The notes beneath the pieces are model-generated. The model ran no database searches. It was given only the letters and a program-made list of their open reading frames with translations, and was not told the DNA's origin. This document shows, one piece after another, positions 6,612 through 26,440 of a stretch of 64,000 bases of DNA (its first letter is position 1; each line of letters starts with the position of its first letter). The DNA comes from Aequorivita sublithincola DSM 14238 (GTDB lineage Bacteria; Bacteroidota; Bacteroidia; Flavobacteriales; Flavobacteriaceae), in assembly GCF_000265385.1 (NCBI RefSeq), contig NC_018013.1, positions 2,879,001 to 2,943,000 of the forward strand, read 5' to 3'. Both the position numbers and the translations under genes were made by a program.

Positions 6612-7790
6612 TTAATTTTGACAAAAGTTATTAGTCACATTTATGTATGTTAAATTGGATGTAATTAATGTATTAGGATCATTAGGGAATTTATATTGAT
6701 GAATTGCACAGCGTTGAATATCTTTAAAAGTTACATCGTGTACATTTAAAACAGTATTGTACCACGTTTCAATTGCTCCCTCTTGATCTGGATTACTTGC
6801 ATATTCTATGGTTGCAAAGCCTATCTCGTTTAAAGCAGAAGGCGTATCAAAATAAATACCTTGCCAGGCACCGAGTACCGCATCTATTCCTGTAAACAAA
6901 ATTGGGCTTTGAGCGGTGCCAACGGCAACTAAACTAGGTTTTGACCCTGATGCTCCTTCATCAACAACCAAACTTGCGTTCAATCCAAATTTCATTACAA
7001 CCCCAGGGTTAATTGTTAACTTACCTCCACCTGCAGAGACAACTAAACGTGATAGAATATGATATGGCACACCAAAATCCTTAAAGGTTGCATCTATATT
7101 AAGAAACCCATCATTTAAATAAATTGCATTCGTTCCATTACCTTTATAATTTCCGCCAACCATACCGTTCACATAATTAGGCCTTATAATCATAGGTACA
7201 TTACAATTGGTAATTGTATTGTTTTCTAGGACAAGTTCATCTCCACCATATATCGCATTAAAACCATACGTTTCAGAATTTGAAATGACGCTATTGCGCA
7301 TAGTAAGATGTGAATTTGACCAAACAATTACAGCTCCTTTATCTCCATTACTATTAAATGCTTTCCCTCCCGCATATTCTATATTTGTAAATTCCATCTT
7401 GTTTTTGATGTCGTTAGTCTCAATATAAATTCCGCGCCATGAGCCTGGATTTCTATCTTCTCCCGTAAATAAAACGGGCTCACCTACGATGCCTAAAGCT
7501 TGTATTGATCCTGTATTTAGAATTGCTAATCCCGCATCTGTACCAAACTGAATAGTAACTCCTGGTTTTATAATGAGATCTCCATTTATGCCATAAACAC
7601 AATTAATTATGTAATCTATACCATCATTTCTGTTTTCTAAGGTCAGCGTTTCTCCTGCTGCTACATTTGTTGAGCAATCTATTGTTTCAGTAAGCAATTC
7701 TGGTGGGGCCCCGGTATCATCATCGCTACTACAAGATGTAACAAACATAAGTGAGCTTAAAGCTCCTATTAATAAAAATTTATTTTTCAT
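6612..7790 (-). CDS. Lipoprotein with a parallel beta-helix-like repeat fold
   Basis: This 392-residue protein starts with a lipoprotein signal whose lipobox Cys20 lies in VTSCSSDDD. That Ser/Asp stretch is typical of Bacteroidota surface lipoproteins. The body has two related halves, each with an ITINPGVVMKFG- or LIIKPGVTIQFG-like strand followed by a PVLFTGED or PILFTGID motif, then SWRGIYIET or AWQGIYFDT and an IEYA motif. That internal duplication and the short hydrophobic rungs fit a right-handed beta-helix. No catalytic residues of a polysaccharide lyase are evident, so adhesion or glycan binding is as likely as catalysis. The gene is monocistronic, with its own terminator. Confidence 0.75.
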   Translation of the reverse strand: MKNKFLLIGALSSLMFVTSCSSDDDTGAPPELLTETIDCSTNVAAGETLTLENRNDGIDYIINCVYGINGDLIIKPGVTIQFGTDAGLAILNTGSIQALGIVGEPVLFTGEDRNPGSWRGIYIETNDIKNKMEFTNIEYAGGKAFNSNGDKGAVIVWSNSHLTMRNSVISNSETYGFNAIYGGDELVLENNTITNCNVPMIIRPNYVNGMVGGNYKGNGTNAIYLNDGFLNIDATFKDFGVPYHILSRLVVSAGGGKLTINPGVVMKFGLNASLVVDEGASGSKPSLVAVGTAQSPILFTGIDAVLGAWQGIYFDTPSALNEIGFATIEYASNPDQEGAIETWYNTVLNVHDVTFKDIQRCAIHQYKFPNDPNTLITSNLTYINVTNNFCQN

Positions 7791-8126
7791 AATTCAATCG
7801 TTTTATTGCACCTACTCCGGTTTTAAGTCTTTTTTCGGCTTGTTCAGACTTTTTTTTGAATATTTTATTCAATGATGGCTACTATATTTATTGCCATACC
7901 ACCCTCCCACAATTGCACAGCTGTCATATTCTCTCCTAATGCATAAAGAAAAATACACTCTTTATATACCCATATTAATTCAGATATTTTTTCTCTTCAT
8001 TATGATTGAATTAGGGTGCTATTAAAAATAAATGTTTTGATGAATATGTTGAAACAAAATTATGGAAGATATAATCCTATAAATATCACATATGTTTCAA
8101 ATGGTATAACAGATGTAACATTATAA
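7791..8126. other. Gap between a lipoprotein gene and a kinase remnant
   Basis: This AT-rich gap holds no convincing gene. A 28-codon frame at 8040-8126 (beginning MNMLKQNYGRYN) sits directly upstream of, and in the same frame as, the kinase remnant, separated from it by one stop codon. It may be more of the same decayed gene or chance. The upstream region of the lipoprotein gene must also lie here, but I see no clear promoter. Confidence 0.4.
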
Positions 8127-8790
8127 TCATCAAGATTGCTACATAACAAGTTAGCAGAACTAAAAAAAAAATTTAGGAAGCCAGATGAATCCTCATTTTA
8201 TATTCAATTCTTTAAATGCTATTAAGCTCTATATCATTGATAATAAAGAAGAAAATGTAGTTGACTATTTAAATAAGTTCTCAAAACTGATCGGCAAAAT
8301 ATTAGCATCCACACAAGAGAAACAAATAACACTAACAGAAGAAATAGAAACCATAAAGTTATATATTGGTATTGAAGACATAATTTTTAACAACGAGATA
8401 GAAGCCACATTTACAATAGATGAAATGCTGCCTTTAGATACCATAAAAATCCCGTCATTAATTTTACAACCCTTTGCAGAAAATGCTATTTGGCACGGGT
8501 TATCATTAAAGAATGATCAAAAAAAACTTCATAGTGCTATTTGTAAAAAGGAAAGCATCTATATAGAAATAAGGATAGAAGACAACGGAATAGGAAGGGA
8601 AAAGTCTTCATTAATTAAACAGAGAAAGCTGTACAAAAAAGAATCTATCGGTGTTAATTTAACAAAAGAACGTTTAAGTAACTTTGAGAAAGACTATAAA
8701 AACAATTACAGCCTAAAGTTTGAAGATTTATACGATGAAGATAAAAAAGCATCTGGAACTACAGTTGTTTTAGAGATACCATTGCAATAA
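8127..8790 (+). pseudogene. Frameshifted LytS-type sensor histidine kinase remnant
   Basis: An open frame from ATG 8185 encodes 201 residues covering the LytS/YehU-type kinase core: the phospho-acceptor motif MNPHFIFNSLN at its very start, the N-box around LQPFAENAIWHGL and the G-box EDNGIG. In family members this motif is preceded by a helix such as LAEL-x-LRSQ. That helix (LLHNKLAELKK) is present at 8139-8171 in another frame. The two frames join if one A is removed from the ten-A run at 8162-8171. Farther upstream the frame meets a TAA at 8124, and no sensor domain or partner LytTR regulator is nearby. I read it as a decayed gene. A sequencing error in the A-run would repair the junction but not restore the missing N-terminus. 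Confidence 0.65.
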
Positions 8791-8826
8791 GGCATGCAAT
8801 ACTGCTATTGATGAAATGTCAGTTTT

Positions 8827-9051
8827 TTATTCAATAATTTCGTAGTCAATATCTAGTTTTCTCAATGCTCTTAAAGCAGATGCAGTGTCTTTGTCTTCTA
8901 TTTCAATTTCTACAGCGTCTCCTTCAAGGAGAATACCGGTAAGTTCATTCGACAAGGATTCACTAATATTTGATGAAATAGCTACAATACAGTTGGCTAT
9001 CGCTCTTCTATCTGGCCGCTGAGCATCACATGACAATAAGTTTAATTTCAT
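8827..9051 (-). CDS. Small HPr-like protein of unknown function
   Basis: This protein has 74 residues and no signal or membrane segment. The second half (SLSNELTGILLEGDAVEIEI, then DTASALRALRKL) has the strand-helix pattern of the C-terminal half of HPr phosphocarrier proteins, where a Gly-Asp turn is followed by an acidic strand and an Ala-Leu-rich helix. The His/Ser phosphorylation sites of true HPr are not evident: there is no His in the protein. It is therefore at most a distant relative. It is divergent from the cold-shock gene. Confidence 0.55.
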   Translation of the reverse strand: MKLNLLSCDAQRPDRRAIANCIVAISSNISESLSNELTGILLEGDAVEIEIEDKDTASALRALRKLDIDYEIIE

Positions 9052-9215
9052 AATATCAATTTATTCATGCAAGATACTAAAGTTGAATTTAGTAGAATGT
9101 GTGAAATTATAGCTTTCAAAATTATATAAAGTGAGTTTAATTCAGGTTAATACCTGTTTTGTTCATTTTTAAAATAATAAATGAAATTATTAGAGGTAAT
9201 TAAATTAAATGGCAC

Positions 9216-9223
9216 CATCTTTG
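9216..9223 (+). promoter_or_regulatory. Candidate -7 box of the cold-shock gene
   Basis: CATCTTTG matches the Bacteroidota -7 consensus TAnnTTTG at all but the first base and lies 37 bases before the start codon. A clear TTG -33 element is not visible at the usual distance. Confidence 0.4.
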
Positions 9224-9260
9224 CGGACCATTAAATATTAATAAATTAAATTACATTACA

Positions 9261-9452
9261 ATGAGTAAAGGAACAGTAAAATTTTTCAACGACACTAAAG
9301 GTTTTGGATTCATCACTGAAGAAGGAGTTGAAAAAGATCACTTTGTACACATTTCTGGATTAATCGATGAGATTAGAGAAGGTGATGAAGTTACATTTGA
9401 CCTTCAAGAAGGAAACAAAGGATTAAACGCAGTAAACGTAAAAGTTAACTAA
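9261..9452 (+). CDS. Cold-shock protein, CspA family
   Basis: At 63 residues this is a complete single cold-shock domain, a five-stranded OB fold that binds single-stranded RNA or DNA and acts as an RNA chaperone. Both RNP motifs are present: KGFGFIT (RNP1, residues about 13-19) and HFVHIS (RNP2, about 27-32, with His in place of the common Val). The start MSKGTVKFF is typical of the family. The gene has its own candidate promoter and a strong terminator, so it is monocistronic. Confidence 0.95.
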   Translation: MSKGTVKFFNDTKGFGFITEEGVEKDHFVHISGLIDEIREGDEVTFDLQEGNKGLNAVNVKVN

Positions 9453-9475
9453 TTATATATTCTTATATTTCAAAC

Positions 9476-9505
9476 AAAGCCCATCTTAATCGATGGGCTT
9501 TTTGT
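9476..9505 (+). terminator. Rho-independent terminator of the cold-shock gene
   Basis: AAAGCCCATC (9476-9485) pairs perfectly with GATGGGCTTT (9492-9501) around a six-base loop, followed by T residues. It begins 23 bases after the stop codon. Confidence 0.9.
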
Positions 9506-9583
9506 TTGCGGTATATTTAATAGTTTACCCACTCAAGCTCGTGTGCGCCGAAGCTTCAGCGAAGGTGTATAGCGAAGGAGGAA

Positions 9584-10225
9584 TTATTCAAAACTATACC
9601 GTTGCTCTACAGTAGAAGATGCATTCAGTAATTGATTGAATATTTTTATGTTATTAAAATCACGTGTTATATCGTCAGATACAGCGATTCCAGAAATTCC
9701 TGTTTCTAAAATGGCGGTTATGTCTGCTGTGGTAATTCCGCCATAGCCTATAATTGGCGTACCTGTTTTTAGTACGTCTGTAATAGCAGTATAGCCCATT
9801 AAACCTAAAGCTGAAGACGTATTCTCCTTAGTTGCTGATTCCCTAAAAGGTCCTAAACTAATATAGTTTACTTGTTTATCAAGTAAGGCTTCGCATTCAT
9901 CCATGGTATTTGCTATTCCTCCAATAAACTGCCAACTATATAAACGTTTTCTAGCTTCAGTAGGGAAGGCGTCGTTTTTTCCAAAATGCACCCCATCTGC
10001 TTTCACTTCTCTTGCTATTTTATAATTGTCGTTTATAATCAGCCTAGTTTGAAAATGGGAGGTCATTTCTCTAGCCTCACTGGCGAATTTTAAAAGCTTT
10101 TTTTCTGAAATCCCTTTTAACCGCAACTGCACTAATTCCGCCCCTGAAGTACAAGCCTTCTGAATATTTTCCAAATGCTCTTTTGGAGAATTGCCTTGAG
10201 ATATGTAATGTAGTTTAGGTATCAT
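9584..10225 (-). CDS. thiE: Thiamine phosphate synthase
   Basis: The 213-residue protein is a ThiE/TenI-family TIM barrel. ThiE couples hydroxymethylpyrimidine diphosphate to thiazole phosphate to give thiamine phosphate. Family landmarks are visible: VQLRLK near residue 32, LIINDNYKIA (phosphate and Mg2+ region), GVHFGKND, and the glycine-rich phosphate loop in PIIGYGGIT followed by GIAVSDDI. In ThiE the second of these loops is usually VHLGQxD and the last is more often VVSAI, so a TenI-like thiazole role is possible. No other thiamine genes and no TPP riboswitch are visible nearby. Confidence 0.8.
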   Translation of the reverse strand: MIPKLHYISQGNSPKEHLENIQKACTSGAELVQLRLKGISEKKLLKFASEAREMTSHFQTRLIINDNYKIAREVKADGVHFGKNDAFPTEARKRLYSWQFIGGIANTMDECEALLDKQVNYISLGPFRESATKENTSSALGLMGYTAITDVLKTGTPIIGYGGITTADITAILETGISGIAVSDDITRDFNNIKIFNQLLNASSTVEQRYSFE

Positions 10226-10313
10226 TGTATTTTAAATATTTTCAATATTTCAAAAAATCTGTCATCCACTTTCTGACTTCCGTCTTTTTCTAATCCCTAA
10301 TCCCTAATCCCAA

Positions 10314-10928
10314 TTACCCAATAGAAACCTTCTTCGAATACTCCATAAAATACCCTTCAAACCTTTTCAATATAGGATGCATTTTTTCTGAATAAAGTAC
10401 ATACTGGCATTTTTGAATACTTTGAGTTATAGACATTATAGCCTTATAGGATGATTGTTGCACTAAAAACTCCGCATCGTCAATACTGAATATCTTTAAA
10501 TCAGCGATACTTACTCCATTGGTTAAAAAGAGTTTATTCATAGATTTTGGGGTTGATATAAGGATGTCAACACCCATAGCGATTTCAGATTTTTGGACAT
10601 CGTTGTGCAATTCTTCATAACCAACGTAAACACGCAAGGAATTGTTTTTGGTATAGGCGAGAAAAGTATCGTATAGTTCCATAGCTATTTCCTTATTTTC
10701 TACAAGAACTAAGGCTCTTGGAGCGTTGCCAATGGCTCTGTATTTCAATTTTTGTAGCGTTGTAAGGATAAGCGTAGTTGTTTTTCCACTGTCTTTTGGA
10801 GCCGTGCAATATACATTGACACCACTTTTTATTATAGGAATACTCTTGCTTTGGAAAGGAGTAGGAGTTGTTATTTCAAACTGCGCTAGTTTTTCTTGTA
10901 TTTCGGGATGTAGTTTATTGAAGGGCAT
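10314..10928 (-). CDS. Half-size DEAD-box-like protein (N-terminal RecA domain only)
   Basis: This 204-residue protein matches just the first RecA-like domain of DEAD-box RNA helicases. The Q motif (TPTPFQ, Gln26), Walker A (APKDSGKTT, residues 43-51) and an ISTPKS motif Ib are present. Motif II is DDAE (residues 150-153) instead of DEAD, so the catalytic Glu is replaced by Asp. Motif III (SAT) and the whole C-terminal helicase domain are missing, so strand unwinding is not expected. The reading frame is clean and has a good promoter, so this looks like a stable short form rather than decay. It could bind RNA or regulate another helicase. Confidence 0.75.
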   Translation of the reverse strand: MPFNKLHPEIQEKLAQFEITTPTPFQSKSIPIIKSGVNVYCTAPKDSGKTTTLILTTLQKLKYRAIGNAPRALVLVENKEIAMELYDTFLAYTKNNSLRVYVGYEELHNDVQKSEIAMGVDILISTPKSMNKLFLTNGVSIADLKIFSIDDAEFLVQQSSYKAIMSITQSIQKCQYVLYSEKMHPILKRFEGYFMEYSKKVSIG

Positions 10929-10959
10929 ATTAAATTTTACAGATGAAGTCTTGGTCTAT

Positions 10960-10983
10960 TTTGTGCTAATTAGCACAAAGATA
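10960..10983 (-). promoter_or_regulatory. Promoter overlapping a 20-bp perfect palindrome before the DEAD-box-like gene
   Basis: On the minus strand TATCTTTG (10976-10983) matches the -7 consensus TAnnTTTG exactly. It overlaps TTTGTGCTAATTAGCACAAA (10960-10979), a perfect 20-bp palindrome that should cover the transcription start. The start codon is 31 bases farther on. The palindrome could be a repressor operator or a 5' leader hairpin. Confidence 0.6.
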
Positions 10984-11204
10984 CTGCCTACAAACGACAT
11001 AGGATGGGATGTTGGTTTTTTTTGAAGTCGGTGACTTTCTAGACGAGTTAATTCTCTATCCTAAGTTAATCAACTATTGTAATGATTCAGTTTTCTTTTG
11101 CCCAGTGAATAAGTTTTACCATAAAAGTTTATAAAACTGATTTTTGTCACATTCCTGCCCAAGTCCATATTGTATATTTACTATAATTTAAATGAAATCA
11201 CGAA

Positions 11205-20836: not shown

Positions 20837-21748
20837 TTACTCAGTAGCGATTATCGCATACCACAGTATAGGCTCTTCTCCTTCTGTGGTGGACATATAG
20901 ATTCCGTTGCGGTATAGATCTATATACAAATTTATATCACGACTATCATCAGATAAATAAACAAACCATTCGTCGCGTTTGGTTTCTATAAATCTATATT
21001 TTGCATCGTTTTCAACAGATCGTTCCATCCAAACATTGTCGCCTACATTTTCAAAATAGCCGGCAGGTTTCTCGCCATCCTTTGTGTACACTACTTTTTT
21101 TAAATTCAACCCATTTATCTCGTTTTGGGAATCACTATTTTTCGTTTGTTGTTGCACAACGGTTTCATTGGAATTGTTTATTTGATCAGTACTACTATCA
21201 TCAGTAAAATTTAATATCAAGATTATAAAAAGAACAATCGTTATTAAACCTCCAATTAAATAAGGGACTATTTTTTTTGATTTCTTTTGAGGAACTGAAT
21301 TAATATTTGCTATCGGTGGCTTAAAACTTCCCTTGGGAACCGACTTATTTTCTTCTGCCAATTTTAAGGTCTGCTTCAAATCATTTACCAAGCGTTCAAA
21401 ACCAGCTTCGTGACCCATAGCCGTAAAATCTACAAACTGCTTCCGTGCCAGTCGCATCGGTACGTCGCATTCCTCTATTTTTATAGGGTTTACGGGTTTG
21501 TCTAAGCCTATAGCATACGAAATTTCGTCTTTCACATTTTCCGAAGCAACAGAAGTTTGCGAAAGGATTAATACGATTGCATCTGCTTTTTTAAGTTCAG
21601 ATTCTATGGTGTCGTCCCAATCTGTTCCTGTGCGTATGTTTTTATCGAACCACACTTCGAATCCTTGTTTTCGTAATGCTTCTACTAATGATGAAACATA
21701 TTCAGTATCGCGTCTTGAATAACTGATGAAAATCTTCTTTGCTGCCAT
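20837..21748 (-). CDS. TIR-domain protein with a single membrane anchor
   Basis: The 303-residue protein has an N-terminal TIR_2-like domain (residues 5-130): box 1 IFISYSRRD, FEVWFDKNIRTGTDWDDTIE and VLILSQTSVAS. A Lys-rich stretch, one transmembrane helix (about 160-181) and a C-terminal region with a KKVVYTKDGEKPAGYFENVG motif follow. The C-terminal part resembles short beta-rich sensor domains but is not assignable. Bacterial TIR domains often hydrolyse NAD or make signalling nucleotides. Here the position after Trp44 that often holds the catalytic acid is Asp45/Asp46, with Glu49 nearby, so activity is uncertain. It is the last gene of a four-gene strand group with a caspase protein. Confidence 0.85.
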   Translation of the reverse strand: MAAKKIFISYSRRDTEYVSSLVEALRKQGFEVWFDKNIRTGTDWDDTIESELKKADAIVLILSQTSVASENVKDEISYAIGLDKPVNPIKIEECDVPMRLARKQFVDFTAMGHEAGFERLVNDLKQTLKLAEENKSVPKGSFKPPIANINSVPQKKSKKIVPYLIGGLITIVLFIILILNFTDDSSTDQINNSNETVVQQQTKNSDSQNEINGLNLKKVVYTKDGEKPAGYFENVGDNVWMERSVENDAKYRFIETKRDEWFVYLSDDSRDINLYIDLYRNGIYMSTTEGEEPILWYAIIATE

Positions 21749-21789
21749 TGTATTCTTTATTAATAAATTAGTATGATTTTGTTAGTACT

Positions 21790-22017
21790 TTAATCCATAA
21801 TATCATAACTTCTTTTAAAGATTGCATCATCACACACATATTTCTCGCCATCAATACCTATCATTAACCAGTCTCCTGCTTTTCCGCTCATCACTCCTTC
21901 CATAGTTTCTACTTCGAAGGGTTCATAGATTTGCACACATTTTATAGGAATGGGCTTCTTTACAGCTTTTTTGAAACTCAGCTTAGGAGTTTTGTCTTGA
22001 AAGAATTTCTTCATCAC
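21790..22017 (-). CDS. Small PGDYG-like protein
   Basis: The 75-residue protein ends with a motif (GKAGDWLMIGIDGEKYVCDD followed by IFKRSYD) similar to the small PGDYG-type domain seen in phage and bacterial proteins, where a Gly-Asp-Trp/Tyr turn precedes two strands. The N-terminal third is Lys/Pro-rich. Function is unknown. It sits 19 bases after the caspase-protein stop codon and 41 before the TIR gene start, so it is probably co-transcribed with both and may link or modulate them. Confidence 0.65.
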   Translation of the reverse strand: MMKKFFQDKTPKLSFKKAVKKPIPIKCVQIYEPFEVETMEGVMSGKAGDWLMIGIDGEKYVCDDAIFKRSYDIMD

Positions 22018-22036
22018 TTAAAAATTTATATTGAAA

Positions 22037-24271
22037 TTACGATAAAAAATTAATTTTTAGGAACTTTATGTATTCATCTTCTGGATTGTCTGTTTGCATC
22101 AAACTCACATAAGCATTATAGGCATTGGCGTGGATTGAAACCTTTTCGCGCAAATCAGCCATTGCTGCCGCTTTTCCATAATTTTCTTTTGAATTTTCAA
22201 AATCGCCTTTATAAAGAAAAATTTCTCCCATCGTAGCTAATTTCCATAGACCTGGAAATGGATCTTTTTCGGTTGCTTGGAAAGCTTTATCCGCAAACGC
22301 TGTCATATCTCCTCTTTCTCTTTTCATCAAACTTAGAAAAGCCAGATTGATGGCGTGGTAATATATTTGTGAATAATCTCCTTTGTCTTCTGAAATCTTT
22401 AAGGCATCACTGTAATGTTTAAAAGCCATTTTTAAATCTTCCGCTAAAGAGGTCAATAAATATTGACGTTTGTAGCGTCCGCCCATTATTCCCAATAAAT
22501 TTGAATTGTTTTTTGCAGCTGGGGTCTCATTCAAAATTTGAATAGCCTCCTCTTCCCTACCGGCTGCTTCTAAAGCGTATATTAAACGCTCTAAACCTTT
22601 GTTATCAAGTTCTTTAAGCTTGGGAAGAAGTGAATTTATAACTTCATTATATTCCCCCATTGCAATATTAATTTCCTCTATATTAGAAGATTTATTTAAA
22701 AAACTTTTGTTGGTTAGCGTATTTAAAAGTAGTTGGTAACTATCGTCATTTTCATTCGTAATCTGTACTATTGAAAAATGGTCACCCTCTATAATTTCGT
22801 GATATTTTTTTGGAAAAGGTTCCAAACTTGAACTAATAGGCACATATTCATCTTTAGTAGCCGCAATTGTTTTAAAAGTGAAAGGATAATCAGCTGGAAA
22901 AGCTTCATCCCAGCGATTTCGTAAGTTTCGCATATATTGGCTTCCTTCTTTCAGGTCTTTTTCATCATTGCCATAAGTAAAAAAGTTTTGCAGTTCTATT
23001 TCAGGAAGGCCATAACTTGGGGTAGCATAGAACATCACGTGACTTATTCTGCCCAAATCATATTCATTCAATTCTAGTAAGGCTTGTTGCACTACAATTC
23101 CACCCAAATCGTGCGCTACAACTGCGATACGTTTATATTTTGAAAATTTATTGTTGATTGAAGTAAGCAAAAAACCTGAATTTCTTTCAATATCAGTTGA
23201 GCACGCCCAAACACTCTTACCCATTTCTGGCATTACATTACTACTATAACCCAACGGAAACATATCCCAACCGTCTAACCCACCTTTATTGTTAATGAGC
23301 AACTTTGGCGCTTGCGAAAAAGTATTTTCAGCATCGCCAGAAAAACCGTGTACAAAGAGAATTACACTATTGGCATTTTCGCTTTCTCTAAATTTTGTAA
23401 CTAATTCTTTTCTAGATGCTTTTGTGGCCTCTACTAAAGCTTCAATTTCTGCTTCATCTGCGTTTTCATCCATCAATTTTGAAGCAAAACTCAACACAAA
23501 ATTCTCGGATATCTGAATGTTTGCATACGGGTTTTGTTTTGGGTAAATCTTTTTTACTTTTCTGAATATATAATCTACCGTTTCAAGAATGTAGACAAAA
23601 GCGTCTTCACCTTCGTGCTTGTCATCTCCTCTTAAAACTTCAATCATACATTGTGAAAAAAGGCTATTTTCTCCTCCTTCCAAAATAACACTCAATTCTT
23701 CTGCACGACAAGCGGAAATTATGATCATACCGCGACCATCATCTAATTTTTGGGCAAGACCATCTGCGTTGGTGTGTTTGGGTTGCAGTCCTGCAACACC
23801 TGCCGTCATTCCTGCAGCGTGGCAACAGTCCAAGAAAAAAATTAATCTTTTTGATTTTAATTGTGAGATTTTATATTTTATTTCTTCGGCTTTAATCCAA
23901 GTGGTTTTGTATTTTTTTGGTTTATAATCAGACGGGCAGAGATGAAAATACTTTTGATTTTCTGCTTCGGGTTTCTTTTTTGTTTCGTCTTTTATAAAGG
24001 TATTGTCGCTATACATTCCACCGTGACCTGAATAAAAGAGTAATACAGAAGAATCTTCATCTGTTCTTTCCAATAAATCATCAAACGCCTTTAGAATGCC
24101 TTTGCGGCTTGCTTTTTTGCCTGTAAGAATTTTTACATTCGATTTATAATAACTACCTGTTTCCTTATTGGCTAGGATTTCATTTATTGCTTTCGCATCG
24201 TTTATTGTTTCTGGGATATCCTTACCACCTACTCCAATTAACAGCGCATGAGCGTTTTTTAGCTTTGCCAT
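22037..24271 (-). CDS. Caspase-like peptidase fused to an alpha/beta hydrolase domain and C-terminal TPRs
   Basis: The 744-residue protein combines three parts. Residues 1-265 are a caspase/metacaspase-type C14 domain with the catalytic pair His83 (FYSGHGG) and Cys150 (FLDCCHAAG). Residues about 300-515 are an alpha/beta hydrolase domain starting VILFVHGFSG, with Asp474 (KDEYVP) and His498 (GDHFS) placed for a triad. The nucleophile elbow reads VVAHDLGGI, so Asp388 replaces the usual Ser. Residues about 550-744 are TPR-like helices. Standalone caspases with repeat domains are common in bacterial conflict systems. It is cytosolic, with no signal or membrane segment. A TPR membrane protein lies upstream and a TIR protein downstream, which suggests an inducible proteolytic response. 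Confidence 0.88.
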   Translation of the reverse strand: MAKLKNAHALLIGVGGKDIPETINDAKAINEILANKETGSYYKSNVKILTGKKASRKGILKAFDDLLERTDEDSSVLLFYSGHGGMYSDNTFIKDETKKKPEAENQKYFHLCPSDYKPKKYKTTWIKAEEIKYKISQLKSKRLIFFLDCCHAAGMTAGVAGLQPKHTNADGLAQKLDDGRGMIIISACRAEELSVILEGGENSLFSQCMIEVLRGDDKHEGEDAFVYILETVDYIFRKVKKIYPKQNPYANIQISENFVLSFASKLMDENADEAEIEALVEATKASRKELVTKFRESENANSVILFVHGFSGDAENTFSQAPKLLINNKGGLDGWDMFPLGYSSNVMPEMGKSVWACSTDIERNSGFLLTSINNKFSKYKRIAVVAHDLGGIVVQQALLELNEYDLGRISHVMFYATPSYGLPEIELQNFFTYGNDEKDLKEGSQYMRNLRNRWDEAFPADYPFTFKTIAATKDEYVPISSSLEPFPKKYHEIIEGDHFSIVQITNENDDSYQLLLNTLTNKSFLNKSSNIEEINIAMGEYNEVINSLLPKLKELDNKGLERLIYALEAAGREEEAIQILNETPAAKNNSNLLGIMGGRYKRQYLLTSLAEDLKMAFKHYSDALKISEDKGDYSQIYYHAINLAFLSLMKRERGDMTAFADKAFQATEKDPFPGLWKLATMGEIFLYKGDFENSKENYGKAAAMADLREKVSIHANAYNAYVSLMQTDNPEDEYIKFLKINFLS

Positions 24272-24344
24272 AATTTTTGATTTTGAAAAGAATTTATAGC
24301 CTTTGAAAAAAGATCAATTAATTAATAATTTGCCTTAAGACGAA

Positions 24345-24420
24345 AGGACATAAGACGTATGACTAATTGGGTTTTTTATCAACGTAATATTTAAAATCAC
24401 ATTTTTACGTCTTATGTCTT
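24345..24420. repeat. Inverted repeat with ACATAAGACGTA arms, containing copy 2 of the dispersed repeat
   Basis: The left arm GGACATAAGACGTA (about 24346-24359) pairs with TACGTCTTATGTC (24406-24418). A further piece, CTTAAAGTCCTATGTCT, follows on the right. The 17 bases at 24348-24364 are identical to 12292-12308. It lies between the caspase gene and the upstream TPR gene and could form a long hairpin in a shared transcript. Confidence 0.55.
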
Positions 24421-24472
24421 AAAGTCCTATGTCTGTTTTCAGCATCAATTCATTTTGGAAGGTTCATTCCAA

Positions 24473-26440
24473 TTATTTCCAAAAGTTCATGACTTCTTCA
24501 AATTCTTTTGAGTTAATATATTTAGTAAAGTGAGGATCGTTTTTAAAGTATTTCCAATGATACAAATGGCCACTGGCTACGGCTTTTAATAAGTGTTTAT
24601 AAAGCTCAGGTTTGTTATTTGCTGCGGCATAATATTGGCCCAGCGCGTAATCTACTTCTCCAAACTGATAGGCGGCTCGTAGATTTTCTAAAATATTTAA
24701 ATTCTTTTTTGCTTCTGAAAGGTTTCCAATTTTAAAATTACTGATAGCCAATTTCGCCAATACATCAATATCCTTAGGCTTTTTAGTATGAACTTCCTTT
24801 AAAACTTTTTCTGCTTTTGCAAATTGCTCTTTATAATATAAAGCGTCGGCAAGCATCTTGGAATCAACTATGCCAGATTCAGCATTAGTAATTTTGTTAA
24901 AGTATTCTTCGGCTTTTGGAATATCATTTTTTAATAGATATTCTTTTCCTGCTTGTAAGTATAATTCTTGTGTTTCTGCCGGAGTTGCGATTATATTTAT
25001 TTTTCGAAGGAATTGACTTAAGGCGTCTTCTTTTCCCGAACGTACATAAGCAATAACCAAAGGTCTATTAAGAATTTTTACTTCAGTTTCATTTTGGGCA
25101 TTTTCAATAATTGAAATTGCTTCTCTGTATTTGCCCAACTCAATATCTGCATATGCCTTTACATAAATACGTGTGGTACAATCTGAACAGTTTTGAAGAT
25201 TCATGCTGTCCATAGCAACCGTTTTGTATATTGCTTCCACATCTTCTGGGCGGTTTACGTATTGTAACGCCACAACCAATGCTGTTCTATTTGTTTTTAA
25301 GTCGAAGGGAGCAATTTCATATTCTTTTAAAATTGATTTGTAAACAGTATGGTTATCGCCTTTCAAAAGCGCTTCATACATATTCAGAAGGTTTAATTGC
25401 CGTTTGTTTGTATAGGAATCTGGTTTTATCAATTTAAGAAGAGAATCAGATTTTTTAAATTCCTTTTGATTGTAAAAATGGGCTACACGTAATACTTTCG
25501 GCTCAAAATAAGTTGAATCGGCAGTTATGGCCTTGTTTAAAAGGTTGATATATTCCTGATTGTCGTTACTGTATTTAGCCTCGAGCAGAAATTTGTAAGC
25601 TTCATATTTTGGAGGCGTTTCCTGAAGCATAAGTCCCTTTTTATCTTCTGTTATAAAATAGCCAGTAATAGATTCATTAAGCTCCTCTATACATTGCAAA
25701 GGGTTGCTGGCAGGACATTCTGTGGGTTTGAAAGATATATTGGTTTTATTTGTTTTTCCGTCAATGAGCATTCCCTGAAAAAGAAGGTTTCCATTTTTAA
25801 GATAAAAATTACCCGAAATAATTTTGCTGGGTTTTAGGTACTCTTTTACTATTGTGGTCTCATCTTCATCAATTTTTTTTCCTTTTAAAATGGTTTTGTA
25901 TTCATCTACCAAATCCTGGGTTATCACTTGCGCTACTTGATTTTCGGTAATTCCATGAATAATCCAATCTGAAGCCATTTTACTCACAATGTCATATTTT
26001 GGATCGCCAGTATTATTGCCAAATTTTAAGACCGCAATTTTGTCACTCTTTACTATTACGGGAAGTAAATCACTTTTATCTCGCGAAAAGTTCTTATTTA
26101 CAATTAAAAAAACGGTAATCACGCAAAGCGAGGTGATTATACCTAGTGAGGAAAAGTACATTTTTTTAAAACCGACCTTTTTCTTTTCTTCCTTTTCGTC
26201 TAGCTCCTCACCGGGTGTATTTATGGGCGCTAGGCGAAATTTCCAAAGAAAAAAAATGTAGAGTGGAAAACAGAGTAGTAATATTATTATCAGAAAAGTA
26301 ACTGATTTTTGAGGAAGGCCCAAAGGTTGCCATGTAATTGATAATACCTGCAAAATAACCCACGCAGATACTACATAAATAGACAACATTTTAAAGACTT
26401 CCTTTTCGTGGCATTGCTTAAAAAAGGAGTTAAGCTTCAT
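24473..26440 (-). CDS. Membrane TPR protein with a FlgO/TolB-like domain
   Basis: The 655-residue protein starts with a short cytosolic tip, a CadC/adenylate-cyclase-type double transmembrane region (IYVVSAWVILQVLS and FLIIILLLCFPLYIFFLW), a charged loop and a third helix at about 95-114. A domain beginning KIAVLKFGNNTGDPKYDIV (residues 134-152) has the pattern of the FlgO/TolB_N family (IAVLPFxNxSGDPxxEY). TPR-like helices fill residues about 275-655. Such proteins usually act as membrane scaffolds or sensors in regulatory systems. It is the first gene of the caspase/TIR strand group, but 201 bases with an inverted repeat separate it from the caspase gene, so it may have its own transcript. 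Confidence 0.8.
   Translation of the reverse strand: MKLNSFFKQCHEKEVFKMLSIYVVSAWVILQVLSITWQPLGLPQKSVTFLIIILLLCFPLYIFFLWKFRLAPINTPGEELDEKEEKKKVGFKKMYFSSLGIITSLCVITVFLIVNKNFSRDKSDLLPVIVKSDKIAVLKFGNNTGDPKYDIVSKMASDWIIHGITENQVAQVITQDLVDEYKTILKGKKIDEDETTIVKEYLKPSKIISGNFYLKNGNLLFQGMLIDGKTNKTNISFKPTECPASNPLQCIEELNESITGYFITEDKKGLMLQETPPKYEAYKFLLEAKYSNDNQEYINLLNKAITADSTYFEPKVLRVAHFYNQKEFKKSDSLLKLIKPDSYTNKRQLNLLNMYEALLKGDNHTVYKSILKEYEIAPFDLKTNRTALVVALQYVNRPEDVEAIYKTVAMDSMNLQNCSDCTTRIYVKAYADIELGKYREAISIIENAQNETEVKILNRPLVIAYVRSGKEDALSQFLRKINIIATPAETQELYLQAGKEYLLKNDIPKAEEYFNKITNAESGIVDSKMLADALYYKEQFAKAEKVLKEVHTKKPKDIDVLAKLAISNFKIGNLSEAKKNLNILENLRAAYQFGEVDYALGQYYAAANNKPELYKHLLKAVASGHLYHWKYFKNDPHFTKYINSKEFEEVMNFWK

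Follow-up and report, generated by a model that had tools for sequence, protein, structure and literature searches.

Do the four minus-strand genes at positions 20837..26440 of the 64,000-nucleotide stretch of the Aequorivita sublithincola DSM 14238 genome analysed here (the window) form a single conflict or cell-death system, as the first-pass annotation of the locus had proposed, or do they belong to smaller units at a common site? Calling of open reading frames (ORFs) confirmed four minus-strand ORFs with the coordinates and short gaps originally reported: in transcription order a membrane protein with TPR repeats (TPRmem, 24473..26440, 655 residues), a fusion of caspase, alpha/beta-hydrolase and TPR-S domains (CASP, 22037..24271, 744 residues), a PGDYG-like small protein (21790..22017) and a TIR membrane protein (20837..21748, 303 residues), separated by 201, 19 and 41 bp, respectively. 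The locus is real and conserved, its TIR and PGDYG parts being more interesting and the whole less unified than first proposed: within the genus, TPRmem and caspase as one pair and PGDYG and TIR as another are present or absent independently of each other, and the four are not one indivisible system.

The separation of the two pairs was evident at the genus site, 22 instances of which were tallied by hand (the window, L061-L067, L069-L073, L092, L214 and L216-L222, with L067 labelled as Flavobacteriaceae only; L068 and L215, at contig ends, were dropped). The TIR gene was present at 12 of the 14 sites with PGDYG and at none of the eight without it (p=1.4e-4), PGDYG standing without TIR at L061 and L217 and TIR without PGDYG at none of the 22. 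The same comparison for the caspase gave TIR at 9 of 15 sites with it and at 3 of 7 without (p=0.65). The CASP gene itself was patchy, occurring in 18 of the 28 genus (Aequorivita-like) genomes. Among the ten CASP-negative genus genomes, seven sites could be read and contained PGDYG-TIR in three cases, PGDYG alone in one and neither in three; G027 was cut short, and the anchor gene gave no site in G693 and G703. PGDYG-TIR pairs with no adjacent CASP were seen at L197, L198, L218, L219 and L220, the L198 genome having a partial caspase match on another contig. Conversely, seven of the eight CASP genomes lacking an adjacent operon-type TIR had none elsewhere either (E<=1e-20), and one of 11 CASP-negative genomes had one; three of those seven (G103, G191, G289) carry a more diverged TIR near the locus. 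The caspase and TIR genes share a location, and probably a transcript, yet seem not to depend on each other. The gene set of the proposed four-gene system is conserved, while its description as a single unit is too strong because the pairs separate in the window's own genus.

Beyond the genus, the 299 family genomes included 33 with CASP (E<=1e-10; in seven of these the hydrolase part is missing from the match), 32 with TPRmem (E<=1e-40) and 21 with PGDYG (E<=1e-6). TPRmem accompanied 30 of the 33 caspase-positive and 2 of the 266 caspase-negative genomes (Fisher 1.7e-35, the genomes being non-independent), and PGDYG lay near CASP in 19 of its 21 genomes (Fisher 3.1e-19); in one of these 19 it is 4 kb off and in another the caspase match is partial, whereas G148, in which PGDYG and a partial caspase match are on separate contigs, was counted as not co-located. 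A scan of named genomes yielded 77 loci, 68 of them with a full-length caspase, in which ORFs were called with a simple script and which are phylogenetically non-independent. TPRmem occurred within 3.2 kb upstream of CASP in 59 of the 62 loci with a full-length caspase and enough upstream room, the three others being L075, L077 and L121, and a further membrane protein (C4), absent from the window, preceded CASP in 33 of the 62. PGDYG followed within 450 bp in 47 of 66 loci (median CASP-PGDYG spacing 12 bp, range 1-98 bp, 49 loci), with TIR a median of 35 bp behind it (38 loci). Caspase and TIR, whose occurrence mostly apart in other genomes had been named beforehand as evidence against the proposal, were mostly found together family-wide, TIR lying within 2.2 kb of CASP in 42 of 61 loci, while within the genus the two showed no association. 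Both PGDYG and TIR were present in 33 of the 61 loci, PGDYG only in 12 (including L074, whose TIR ends past the 2.2-kb limit) and TIR only in nine. The same gene order was seen in several chromosomal contexts: close to TerC in the genus, between rplT and dnaB in a second group, and close to nSTAND1 and SLATT-type genes in a third. Some relatives have SLATT/DUF4231, nSTAND1 or patatin genes near the locus; within the fetched flanks of the 77 loci, eight contain a SLATT-type gene and five nSTAND1. At L198, a patatin gene (9925-11013; PF01734, 2e-31) directly follows PGDYG-TIR with no caspase adjacent, as though one effector had replaced another.

The TIR protein appears to be the most unusual component. 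Its TIR domain (21386..21733, residues 6-121; TIR_2 3.4e-28) is followed by a single predicted transmembrane helix (21215..21271, residues 160-178, from hydropathy and charge count), with four Lys/Arg in the preceding 15 residues and none after, and by a C-terminal predicted outer domain (20840..21214). A helix was predicted after the TIR domain in 56 of 57 TIR proteins, one in 45 and two in 11, and in 54 of the 56 the first helix had more Lys/Arg on its N-terminal than on its C-terminal side. By the positive-inside rule, the C-terminus of the one-helix proteins, including that of the window, is predicted to be outside, giving a putative receptor layout of cytoplasmic TIR, one helix and outer domain; genes for the two-helix type often have beside them one for another membrane protein whose tail is related. 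TIR_2 matched all of 45 aligned TIRs (44 of the 57 scanned for helices plus that of L198), whose only invariant column is Glu75 (21524-21526), which we take to be the catalytic residue by comparison with the SARM1 glutamate; on this evidence both the TIR fold and the Glu expected of TIR NADases appear to be in place. Of the two residues singled out earlier for mutation, Asp45 proved nearly invariant and Glu49 did not, and Glu75, the likeliest key residue, had been missed.

The two halves of this protein have evolved differently. Over 11 genus pairs the TIR domain was 89-98% identical at 25-61% identity of fourfold sites; against the window, the TIR domains of L062, L092, L066, L067 and L073 were 91-96% identical in protein and 25-47% at fourfold sites, high protein with low fourfold identity indicating strong purifying selection instead of recent transfer. 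Recent transfer was rejected because these fourfold values are no higher than the 33-56% of CASP/TPRmem. The outer domain, in contrast, is replaced by a different domain in several close relatives: it was 81% identical to that of the window in L062 and 22-28% in the four others, and in the sister pair L062/L092 the TIR domain is 98%, caspase and TPRmem 91% and the outer domain 25% identical. Exchange of the outer domain is thus real, even between two sister species, with few types seen. Among 44 tails compared, 35 fell into one loose group and the window type had two members; G101 has a domain similar to that of the window in a further TIR protein, and G076 has one in a long protein. L064 and L065 have a different TIR, 45-47% identical, and a Fib_succ_major outer domain was recognised in one of the 45 TIR proteins, by its sequence that of L064.

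The CASP protein, with a single match in its own genome (one 3.52-Mb contig), has its closest named relatives mostly in Aequorivita (Flavobacteriaceae) at 71-86% identity, and its AlphaFold model reached a mean predicted local distance difference test (pLDDT) score of 80.5. The Peptidase_C14, DUF676 and TPR-S profiles matched, in agreement with the fusion first described. The caspase domain (23522..24250, residues 8-250; 1.6e-18) has the dyad of the caspase clan, His83 (24023-24025) and Cys150 (23822-23824), intact in all 70 caspases aligned, so that the choice of Cys150 for mutation was sound; metacaspases and lipases were among the profile matches, and metacaspase, MALT1 and lipases among the best 50 fold matches listed. 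No Thoeris caspase was named in either set, whose libraries may not include one. The alpha/beta-hydrolase domain (22709..23371, residues ~301-521, its extent taken from the model) has a marginal DUF676 match (residues 301-432; 1.5e-4, 21.8 bits against a cut-off of 20.3) with Asp474 and His498 invariant in 70 of 70 sequences; position 388 (23108-23110), that of the nucleophile, is Ser in 46, Asp in 15 and Gly in 9, and the Asp sequences are the window, L061-L073 and L092, all 15 of the genus type. The C-terminal TPR-S domain (PF20308; 22334..22654, residues 540-646; 1.7e-15) is a predicted sensor by its Pfam name only, and our literature search found no paper describing it. Shorter caspases of ~460 residues without the hydrolase also adjoin TPRmem at L054-L057, followed in three by small proteins with G-N-I-G-D-like repeats, and hydrolase-TPR-S proteins of ~460-480 residues at L139-L144, from other families of the phylum, match without the caspase part.

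The PGDYG-like gene and its likeness to that family stood as first reported, with the start probably one codon later: Met2 is invariant in 44 PGDYG sequences, making ATG at 22014 the probable real start and reducing the protein from 75 to 74 residues (model pLDDT 91.5). It matched PF14083 at 2.1e-5 (25.2 bits, just below the 27-bit cut-off) and PHROG_419 at 2.5e-12. At E<=1e-3 it had matches in 182 of 50,697 phage records and in 5 of 72,556 plasmid records, collections that differ in size. By sequence it is kin of a widespread phage protein; its model found viral PGDYG proteins by fold (best 2.6e-5) and no match in the PDB (best E 0.73). A weak match inside a MazG-type protein of one phage (9e-4) and a PGDYG protein labelled nicotinate ribosyltransferase in another, a label to which the Pfam scan gave no support, are weak hints at nucleotide metabolism. 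A fusion of PGDYG with RyR in phages was dismissed, since no RyR appeared in the Pfam scan of five phage proteins. In Curtobacterium phage Daddyjeff (L199), a PGDYG-like gene directly follows an Acb2/Tad1-type signal-sponge gene; this arrangement occurred in one phage only, with none so annotated in 13 other regions where most neighbours are unnamed, and PGDYG as a signal-sponge neighbour was given little weight. No paper naming the PGDYG family was found in the literature search.

Comparison with known systems agreed with the earlier statement that no named system has this exact set: no NCBIfam match of the four window proteins reached its cut-off, and PADLOC gave single-domain or partial matches only. 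The literature search found no published match to the gene set, with most subscription papers outside its reach, and novelty is accordingly provisional. The nearest named system is type IV Thoeris, in which, as Rousset et al. reportedly described in Science in 2025, N7-cADPR made by the TIR protein activates the caspase. The two share a TIR enzyme and a caspase-like protease encoded together, a TIR gene next to a caspase-like gene being found here in the window and in the 42 of 61 loci. Unlike type IV Thoeris, the present locus has a hydrolase and TPR-S on the CASP chain, which is partnered by a membrane-TPR protein; its TIR is anchored in the membrane and carries an outer domain open to exchange, it includes a PGDYG gene, and its TIR and caspase also occur without each other. 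In the VMAP systems, among the NTP-dependent conflict systems described by Kaur et al. 2020 (PMC7159879), the caspase always has a neighbouring alpha/beta-hydrolase gene and the effectors include TIR; in the present locus caspase and hydrolase are fused in one chain, and the operon contained no recognisable MoxR, vWA or VMAP gene, the flanking genes of relatives being only partly profiled. In conflict proteins with C-type-lectin sensors diversified by diversity-generating retroelements (PMC10907252), a variable ligand-binding domain accompanies TIR or caspase-like effectors, either fused to them or encoded alongside; they vary by retroelement mutagenesis of lectin folds, whereas here whole outer domains differ between species. 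The caspase domain is like that of the EACC1-associated caspase, the NCBIfam model of which (NF047832) scored CASP at 64.4 bits, below its curated cut-off of 140. Proteins of PF14083/PHROG_419 are like the small protein in sequence and viral fold, but here its gene recurs in a caspase/TIR locus on the chromosome.

A conserved conflict-type locus is supported, and we place it as a variant among the caspase/TIR conflict systems. The candidate conflict or cell-death system of the first-pass annotation gained from the conserved order in several genera, tight spacing, intact catalytic residues and conflict-type neighbours, and lost the unity of its four genes. We tentatively prefer to see in it two separable pairs at a gene-turnover site, together a membrane-associated locus for immunity or programmed death, a reading whose chance of being correct we put just short of even; with it we infer phage defence, enzymatic activities, topology, co-transcription and activation routes. 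In the first pair, TPRmem as sensor or scaffold would hold CASP and, on a signal, release or activate it, whereupon the caspase-hydrolase-TPR-S protein would cleave cell proteins. In the second, comprising PGDYG and the transmembrane TIR enzyme, a change of the outer domain (caused, e.g., by membrane damage or an attacker's surface protein) or of PGDYG would switch on the cytoplasmic TIR, which would deplete NAD+ or make an ADP-ribose signal. The original division of labour, with membrane proteins sensing and caspase and TIR acting, needs revision: the TIR protein is also membrane-bound, its outer domain can be exchanged, and it may for that reason carry its own sensor. Where both pairs are present they would probably share a transcript, and TPR-S may in addition respond to the TIR product, with neither pair needing the other; such crosstalk is plausible because the TIR product of type IV Thoeris switches on a caspase (PMC12847820).

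Several observations weigh against the reading as two immune pairs. Neither PGDYG nor TIR was found in 7 of 61 caspase loci, the hydrolase domain may be non-catalytic in the 24 of 70 sequences with Asp or Gly as nucleophile (Asp can serve as nucleophile in some hydrolases, Gly cannot), and the 11 two-helix TIR proteins would have their C-terminus inside. The outer domain was retained in L092/L067 (79%) and merely diverged in four pairs (36-47%). No conflict-type gene was present among the three flanking window proteins scanned (TetR, secreted BNR and a formate/nitrite transporter). The locus is also less mobile than typical defence genes: it had no relative in viral contigs and no plasmid site covering 80% of CASP, on which grounds a mobile-element origin was discarded, and one clade has it at a fixed core site between rplT (17/77 loci) and dnaB (15/77).

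That core-gene site, the absence from viral contigs and the nucleotide-cyclase domain of the TPRmem relative at L100 would all suit housekeeping envelope-stress or developmental signalling, in which envelope monitoring would fall to TPRmem and the TIR outer domain and the trimming of regulators to the caspase, with no role in immunity. We regard this as unlikely given the patchy distribution of CASP in genus and family, the exchanged outer domain and the conflict-type neighbours of some relatives. A linear cascade of the type IV Thoeris kind, with a TIR-made cyclic ADP-ribose signal binding TPR-S and switching on the caspase while PGDYG and TPRmem tune the response, appears somewhat unlikely. 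TIR and caspase do share one operon-like order, TPR-S as the predicted sensor sits on the caspase chain, the ThsB_TIR profile was matched by 38 of 45 TIRs (E<=0.01) and a TIR signal activating a caspase-like protease has published precedent (PMC12847820); against this stand the seven CASP genomes with no operon-type TIR anywhere at E<=1e-20, PGDYG-TIR pairs without CASP and the missing TIR-CASP association within the genus. Separability argues, not decisively, against a strict cascade, and G103, G191 and G289, counted against it, have a diverged TIR near the locus; these diverged TIRs and the two helices in 11 of 57 TIR proteins strengthen the cascade and weaken both the two-pair reading and any outside sensing. 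PGDYG and TIR might also resemble a toxin-antitoxin pair that happens to lie next to an unrelated caspase pair, as the genus sites, where TIR never lacks PGDYG and PGDYG stands alone at L061 and L217, would allow; the nine of 61 loci with TIR and no PGDYG, all of other genera, together with the tight and recurrent coupling of PGDYG to CASP, make this quite improbable.

Animal Toll-like receptors have an outer domain, one membrane helix and a cytoplasmic TIR. The resemblance of the window TIR to them is an analogy of layout only, with reverse chain order and no evidence of descent. A bolder reading, which we think rather improbable, would make the TIR protein a receptor of Toll-like layout, with interchangeable outer sensors, one helix and a near-frozen TIR wired to a caspase, a captured phage PGDYG acting as bait or ligand-binding switch and attackers being detected from outside. 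In the bacterial TIR defences known to us, the triggers act inside the cell. TIR and caspase proteins are common to bacterial and animal immunity, and if the bolder reading were true, a caspase next to a transmembrane TIR whose outer domains can be exchanged would offer a testable case of outside-in immune signalling in bacteria. The locus could also supply a role for the PGDYG family, spread over many phages.

TPRmem consists of N-terminal membrane helices, a central domain of uncertain family and C-terminal TPR repeats (TPR_19 1e-6). Its initial FlgO/TolB-like label was not confirmed, no such profile being among the nine families matched by the window protein nor among the 25 listed of the 60 families matched by 24 TPRmem members including it. 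At L100, a TPRmem relative (7667-9922) has an adenylate/guanylate cyclase domain at its N-terminus. At L077 and L032, TPRmem and C4-caspase are about 5 kb apart with unrelated genes between them, and a similar gap is present at L121 and L128, so that in two of the three loci without TPRmem within 3.2 kb (L077 and L121) it lies ~5 kb off. The gap between TPRmem and CASP is 29-58 bp in 13 of 14 genus-type loci (L061-L073, L092) and 199 bp in L070. The 201-bp spacer of the window (24272..24472) contains an imperfect palindrome and has a fold z of -2.99; pieces of the spacer recur in 11 other matches of 31-49 bp in its own genome.

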